From Comamonadaceae bacterium OH2545_COT-014 (GTDB taxonomy: Bacteria; Pseudomonadota; Gammaproteobacteria; Burkholderiales; Burkholderiaceae_C): a DNA stretch of 41,877 nucleotides. The notes under the pieces are model-generated. The model ran no database searches, was not told where the DNA came from, and was given only the letters and a program-made list of their open reading frames with translations. The stretch spans positions 1 through 41,877 of the forward strand of contig RQYR01000027.1 in NCBI GenBank assembly GCA_003859965.1. The letters run 5' to 3'. Numbering within the stretch: position 1 is the first letter of the stretch; every line of letters starts with the position of its first letter. Below are positions 17,853 through 18,038 of this stretch, piece after piece. The position numbers and the translations under genes are program-made.

Positions 17853-18038
17853 CATCAACGAGTTGGGAGAAAAAGACTCAATTTTCCTGCTGCCAAGCCT
17901 GACGGTTTCTTCATGAACCGGGCTGAAAACCTGAAGCGCACTTCCTCCTCCCTCCCTCCTCCTCCTTCGCTTCAGGCCGCTTCGCAGCGTTTTTATGCCG
18001 CAACGCCGCCGGGCTCTTCTCAGCCCGGCGGCGTTTTG
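17853..18038 (+). ncRNA. Candidate small RNA with pyrimidine-rich loops and its own terminator
   Basis: Three stem-loops occur in order. SL1 has CGGTT (17903-17907) pairing with AACCG (17916-17920) around a CUUCA-containing loop. SL2 has CCTGAAGCG (17930-17938) pairing perfectly with CGCTTCAGG (17968-17976) around a 29-base loop, of which 17941-17967 is pure pyrimidine with repeated CCTCC. SL3 is a 14-bp terminator stem. Repeated CCUCC could pair with Shine-Dalgarno sequences, as described for CU-rich-loop sRNAs in other proteobacteria. Upstream, GAACCG (17821-17826), 16 bases and TCATA (17843-17847) resemble an RpoE/ECF-type promoter. The 5' end is inferred from that promoter. No transcript evidence is available here. 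Confidence 0.45.
18002..18037 (+). terminator. Strong Rho-independent terminator with no protein gene upstream
   Basis: AACGCCGCCGGGCT (18002-18015) pairs perfectly with AGCCCGGCGGCGTT (18022-18035) across the loop CTTCTC, and is followed by TTTT. The nearest upstream protein gene ends more than 500 bases earlier with a MITE between, so it more likely ends a separate short transcript. Confidence 0.8.

Follow-up and report, generated by a model that had tools for sequence, protein, structure and literature searches.

What kind of product is encoded between slyD and purB in Comamonadaceae bacterium OH2545_COT-014? An earlier note, made on the whole stretch of DNA analysed here (41,877 nucleotides, hereafter the window), had proposed a small RNA whose all-pyrimidine loop would pair with Shine-Dalgarno sequences. 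Comparison of homologous loci shows a conserved RNA on the + strand, predicted to fold into a three-way junction with one unpaired 27-nt CU loop and preceded in most cases by a sigma-E-like promoter. As to its function, the reading that we favour, with a probability of roughly 0.68, is that of a stress-induced, trans-acting anti-Shine-Dalgarno small RNA of ~143 nt (17854 to about 17996), acting by a mechanism that we infer from sequence.

Architecture of the locus

The features of the locus are collected in Table 1.

Table 1. Sequence features in and around the putative small RNA (window coordinates).
Feature	Position	Strand	Description
Sigma-E/ECF-like promoter	17820-17847	+	GGAACCG-N16-TCATA
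Variable 5' leader	17854-17888	+	Start estimated from the -10 box; aligns poorly even among 22 loci
Outer closing helix, 5' arm	17889-17898	+	GCTGCCAAGC; one C.C mismatch in the window
Hairpin 1	17903-17920	+	Arms 17903-17908/17915-17920; sequence variable, stem kept
Hairpin 2	17930-17976	+	Perfect 9-bp stem carrying the pyrimidine loop; arms CCTGAAGCG (17930-17938) and CGCTTCAGG (17968-17976)
All-pyrimidine loop	17941-17967	+	27 nt, pure C/T; anti-Shine-Dalgarno-like
Outer closing helix, 3' arm	17979-17988	+	GCTTCGCAGC; pairs with 17889-17898
T-run	17990-17996	+	Follows the outer helix directly; probable terminator of the RNA itself, with the 3' end
14-bp hairpin and T-run	18002-18037	+	Arms 18002-18015/18022-18035; loop CTTCTC; TTTT at 18034-18037

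The 9-bp stem and the 27-nt all-pyrimidine loop described in the earlier note proved exact by sequence. The complete loop of hairpin 2 has 29 nt (17939-17967), and its C/T run extends one base into the stem, which brings the run to 28 nt. This tract is the window's sole run of C/T or A/G of at least 17 nt; first-order Markov sequences (200 in all) had longest runs of 13.6 on average and never one above 20. Several overlapping CUCC/CCUCC words are found in the loop and resemble the 16S anti-Shine-Dalgarno.

The ordered set of stem-loops given in that note was, however, incomplete, as it overlooked the outer helix and the TTTTT that follows it. The outer helix closes a three-way junction that encloses the small hairpin 1 and hairpin 2. 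For an RNA spanning 17853-18042 the predicted folding energy is -68.8 kcal/mol, with a z of -3.78, and 0 of 200 shuffles folded as low. Single-sequence folding yields the three-way junction in 8 of 9 sequences, the window's included; L024 alone lacks helix 2 by minimum energy.

Because TTTTT comes directly after the outer helix, the RNA probably ends near 17996. Runs of at least 4 T are found within the final 11 nt in 74 of 93 homologous matches, and of at least 3 T in 87 of 93. The closing helix of the junction seems to double as terminator. The downstream 14-bp hairpin with its CTTCTC loop and TTTT is present as described and looks like a second terminator, perhaps a bidirectional one in relatives where a convergent GST gene follows. 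The end at about 18038 that had been assigned to the RNA did not stand equally well: both ends are predicted ones, and the T-run makes a 3' end near 17996 probably the likelier choice.

Distribution and covariation

A DNA search detected matches in 25 of 60 genomes, including that of the window, although those in G005 and G057 were short. A covariance model, R1, was built from 22 sequences, the window's among them; L013, truncated by the end of a contig, and L025-L028, whose partial matches were short and did not include the loop, were left out of this alignment. When the conservation of the RNA was checked with R1, matches were found in 275 of 399 genomes of the family, representing 105 of 141 genera. 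No R1 match was found in the other 124 genomes under strict filters, and for that reason 275 is a lower bound. All but two of the 275 genomes harbor a single match.

Among 399 genomes drawn from across the order, R1 matched 11 of the family and missed one listed family genome. Outside the family it matched 1 of about 387 genomes, marginally (E 0.0075). Refinement of the model (R2) gave no wider range in the order draw, where 11 family genomes and three others matched, the latter with E values of 0.05-0.09. A second R2 match in the window, at 15920-16043 (-) inside topB (20.4 bits, E 0.0019), was taken as chance at high G+C.

For covariation analysis, 93 loci picked among the better matches, one or few per genus, were fitted to R1 (alignment A3). 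In A3, whose pair counts lean towards structure because the alignment was fitted to R1 and the loci were selected, standard pairs occupy 93.0% of the pair cells, and two-sided changes are found at 25 of 26 pairs. None of 500 shuffles reached any of five covariation measures, and sliding the partners by 1-3 columns lowered pairing to 36.5-45.4%. The three helices behaved as follows:

(i). The outer helix is paired in 96.9% of cells and shows two-sided changes in 10 of 10 pairs.

(ii). Hairpin 1 is paired in 81.4% of cells, with two-sided changes in 7 of 7 model pairs.

(iii). The stem of hairpin 2 is paired in 97.3% of cells. The compensatory changes that the earlier note had proposed to seek in this 9-bp stem exist in 8 of its 9 pairs.

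RNAalifold predicted the identical three helices from A3, with 23 of 24 pairs covarying. A plain MAFFT alignment of the 22 sequences (A2) was 85.6% paired and contained 11 pairs changed on both sides. On A2, RNAalifold recovered helix 2, added a spurious 3-bp helix, and missed both hairpin 1 and the outer helix; our reading is that the latter was missed because two forms of its 3' arm are misaligned.

The 93 loci contain 182 G-U cells and 34 A-C cells, an excess which indicates that the RNA is encoded by the + strand, where the T-run and the promoter likewise lie. One could suppose that no RNA is made, and that the locus is low-complexity DNA in which a mirror-repeat pyrimidine tract, able perhaps to form triplex DNA, is accompanied by chance hairpins. 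Two-sided changes at nearly every pair and the excess of G-U over A-C make such a view extremely hard to sustain. Covariation strongly supports the proposed structured RNA, and the locus very probably gives rise to a genuine small RNA, as yet without a class, that has been retained throughout a large bacterial family.

A protein-coding reading was also considered. Matches are 96-109 long, and of the 93 loci 40, 66 and 59 are open in the respective frames, figures that are weak alone; this reading was set aside mainly because of the paired structure.

The sequence of the large loop was examined in the same 93 loci. At its centre (columns 69-94), 2167 pyrimidines and 21 purines were counted, that is, 99.0% pyrimidine, compared with only 37.8% in the linker; for the entire loop the figure is 95.9%. 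The loop varies in length between loci, and the longest pyrimidine run per locus measures 13-31 nt, with a median of 27. All 93 loci contain CCTCC, 92 contain CTCCTCC and 89 contain CTCCTCCCTCC. The pyrimidine loop is clearly under constraint as judged from these alignments. It is also predicted to be unpaired in the window, with a mean pairing probability of 0.005, so that the RNA combines a conserved CU-rich anti-Shine-Dalgarno stretch with its predicted accessibility. The small upstream hairpin had been credited with a CU-rich loop as well; this holds in the window but not across the 93 loci, in which its loop columns are 59.9% pyrimidine.

An unpaired, YC-rich RNA whose centre remains pyrimidine despite varying loop length might instead serve as a decoy, binding Rho, ribosomal protein S1, Hfq or a CcaF1-like protein in order to titrate or load it. 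We consider this improbable: the near-universal CTCCTCC exceeds the needs of a general pyrimidine preference, and the loop is short for Rho.

Promoter, neighbors and possible targets

The pattern GGAAC-N15..19-TC-N1..2-A resembles sigma-E promoters, the RpoE consensus being GGAACTT-N15/16-TCnnA. The RpoE/ECF-like promoter previously noticed upstream of the RNA (GAACCG-N16-TCATA, 17821-17847) is indeed present, and a form of it is conserved: 79 of the 93 loci have the general pattern no more than 260 nt upstream, compared with a mean of 2.6 and a maximum of 8 for letter shuffles, and 52 have a stricter form (mean 1.3, maximum 5). The -35 element reads GGAACCG in the window, and GGAACTT or GGAACTC in many relatives. 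In the window's genome, the exact pattern GGAACTT-N14..17-TCNNA is found at just two places (17 in the reversed control), neither of them at the RNA. An RpoE protein above the family cut-off is present. When 23 rpoE loci, 15 of them from the same genus, were scanned for a promoter of the same type, only two sites were detected, each hundreds of bases off.

Upstream, 22 of the 93 loci also have a direct repeat, TTYAC-N5/6-TTTAC, for example at about 1397-1411 of L003; the mean for shuffles is 0.11. In 16 of these 22 loci it lies 34-37 bp before the GGAAC box, and it may be an activator site.

The neighborhood was surveyed by testing eight neighbor proteins on the 93 loci, each about 3 kb long. 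Downstream, the nearest gene was an amine oxidase (FADox) in 41 loci, a convergent GST gene in 38, corA in 8 and purB in one, the window itself; none was recognised in 5. Upstream, glutathione peroxidase was nearest in 42 of 93. Location between slyD and purB is thus a trait of the window, and in relatives the RNA precedes a convergent GST gene or the amine-oxidase operon. The slyD gene of the window (17015-17485, +) scores 85.5 bits with the SlyD model PRK10737, below the cut-off of 174, and appears to encode a diverged SlyD-like FKBP.

The FADox operon was detected downstream of the RNA in L126, L127, L129, L130 and others of L125-L144, and its proteins, analyzed with Pfam on one representative each, are Amino_oxidase, DUF1365, CMAS, Chalcone_3, MFS_2 and DUF3833. 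A MerR protein with B12-binding domains is encoded near the operon in some of L125-L144. Likened by Pfam content and description, the operon resembles RSP_1087-1091 of R. sphaeroides, which is described in PMC7074977 as RpoE-dependent, induced by singlet oxygen and coding for two proteins of cyclopropane synthesis, a GPH symporter, one hypothetical protein and an SDR.

The frequent proximity of FADox raises the possibility that the RNA is a cis-acting leader, attenuating the downstream gene from its 5' UTR, with the closing helix and the T-run as a conditional terminator. In the 41 FADox loci, the gene starts roughly 13-167 nt past the end of the model (starts extrapolated from tblastn), in keeping with a leader. 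In 47 of the 52 other loci, however, the nearest downstream gene is another of those tested, most often the convergent GST gene, and in the remaining 5 none was recognised; purB of the window has another 14-bp terminator in front of it. In addition, full FADox is absent from four tested genomes of Ottowia, the genus of the window (G000, G014, G011 and G023), one without any match and three with fragment matches only (E 7.6e-5 to 1.8e-4), and all four keep the RNA. In G126, which belongs to another genus, FADox lies about 2.1 Mb from the RNA in contig coordinates, and the RNA is likewise kept. A leader therefore seems unlikely. Since the RNA is retained where its FADox neighbor is gone, it most likely acts in trans, as far as genome comparison can tell.

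A tentative model for a trans-acting RNA, based on the mode of action of NmsR, NfeR1 and the Burkholderia double-hairpin RNAs, is as follows. Under envelope or (photo-)oxidative stress, the RNA would be switched on by an RpoE/ECF-type sigma factor, and the CU loop would then pair with the purine-rich ribosome-binding sites of chosen mRNAs and block their translation. At FADox loci, one transcript might give rise to the small RNA by termination and to the operon mRNA by read-through. Synthesis of the RNA may in this manner slow protein synthesis during oxidative stress.

Pairing with Shine-Dalgarno sequences, as advanced in the earlier note, fits the loop sequence, but counts of ATG-proximal patterns yielded no recurrent target set. 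The pattern GGAGGAGG-N3..9-ATG was found at 6 places (control 3), none of which opens an ORF of more than 90 codons. The pattern AAGGAGGA-N4..8-ATG was more frequent, with 31 places in 6 genomes (control 5); 30 of the 31 places were examined, and two histidine-kinase-like proteins apart, they showed no clear shared target set. The two exceptions, L183 and L205, come from two genera and carry AAGGAGGA before the ATG of a similar gene, whose name is our reading; it is a possible target. Energy calculations gave opposite results depending on the site: the loop pairs with a full consensus Shine-Dalgarno sequence more weakly than a 16S-tail-like oligonucleotide does (-12.0 vs. -17.7 kcal/mol), and with words such as AGGAGGAG more strongly (-13.5 vs. 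-9.8 kcal/mol).

A broader speculation, which we regard as doubtful, is that the RNA might be a family-wide Comamonadaceae mimic of the 16S anti-Shine-Dalgarno tail and a general translation brake in oxidative or singlet-oxygen stress, linked to an amine-oxidase/cyclopropane-lipid operon of the type that is under RpoE in Rhodobacter. Were this so, two classes of proteobacteria would have recruited unrelated CU-loop RNAs into one stress program, many species would make the small RNA by early termination at the head of the operon, with one promoter for RNA and enzymes, and the RNA would outlive the operon where the latter is lost.

Relation to described RNA families

No Rfam 15 family reached its cut-off at the RNA locus, either in the window or in 20 homologous loci, in agreement with the earlier note, whose author knew of no named family arranged like this at slyD-purB. 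A search of the open-access literature did not turn up this RNA, nor any small RNA study of this kind in Comamonadaceae. The single Rfam match above cut-off in the window lies elsewhere: RF02835 (Bcj11, Burkholderia RNA 11) at 36654-36775 (-), with 70.6 bits and a cut-off of 49.

We also asked whether the RNA might be a diverged form of a described family, namely the RF02278 toxic small RNA, ar14/NfeR1 or CcsR1. Two sub-threshold matches in the window hint at such kinship: RF02344 (ar14) with 25.9 bits (E 0.01; gathering score 58.8) and RF02791 (CcsR1) with 17.5 bits (gathering score 65.3), the latter at 17969-18037, outside the loop. Both are absent from six other homologous loci even at E<=1. 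RF02278, whose gathering score is 50 bits, went unreported at the locus even at E<=10; it scores above cut-off in 18 of 31 genomes searched, and in the window's genome it occupies a different locus (G000:C23:3057-3121, about 1501-1565 of L035; 56.1 bits), which makes it a second CU-bearing small RNA of this bacterium. R2 matches RF02278 loci weakly (best 19.5 bits, E 0.0018), and these matches were discounted because the 23-41 nt that they cover are too short for three helices. That the RNA is a diverged member of any of the three families is, in our view, very unlikely.

By the tests run, the RNA looks to work like known anti-Shine-Dalgarno RNAs and is a member of none of their families; we rate it as a new RNA family, characterized by one large loop on a three-way junction. 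It adds to Comamonadaceae a covariance-supported family absent from Rfam 15 as searched. With it one can readily test whether anti-Shine-Dalgarno RNAs evolved repeatedly to serve as brakes within oxidative-stress regulons, and how a generic 27-nt loop selects its targets.

Four known systems invite comparison. The double-hairpin RNAs ncS03, ncS05, ncS27 and ncS62 of Burkholderia, which constitute RF02278, are betaproteobacterial too and have an unpaired CU-rich stretch that is predicted to mask ribosome-binding sites, a mechanism proposed for ncS27 (PMC5688073). RF02278 is, however, a 64-position RNA with two hairpins and three to five copies per Burkholderia genome, while the RNA described here has one copy, a three-way junction and another locus. 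The alphaproteobacterial ar14/NfeR1 RNAs (RF02344) share the CCUCCUCCC anti-Shine-Dalgarno motif, and antisense blocking of ribosome-binding sites by NfeR1 has been shown with loop mutants (PMC10746234). Their three hairpins each carry CCUCCUCCC, and they are described with an RpoD-type promoter and LsrB/NtrC control; here, the CU words lie in one big loop, the loop of hairpin 1 being only 59.9% pyrimidine, and the promoter is sigma-E-like. The CcsR1/cuckoo RNAs of Rhodobacter (RF02791) resemble our RNA in the CCUCCUCCC motif, as judged by Rfam name, and in their association with stress sigma factors and a photooxidative setting (PMC8307010, PMC7074977). CcsR1 belongs to four homologous RNAs that are co-transcribed with ccaF1 and processed, unlike the single RNA with its own putative promoter found here. 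Lastly, NmsRA and NmsRB of Neisseria meningitidis possess UC-rich anti-Shine-Dalgarno stretches, one of them in a loop, and loop mutants have shown that they block ribosome-binding sites and repress TCA-cycle mRNAs; compared by description, they differ in being two siblings with three stem-loops under stringent-response control (PMC5362039).
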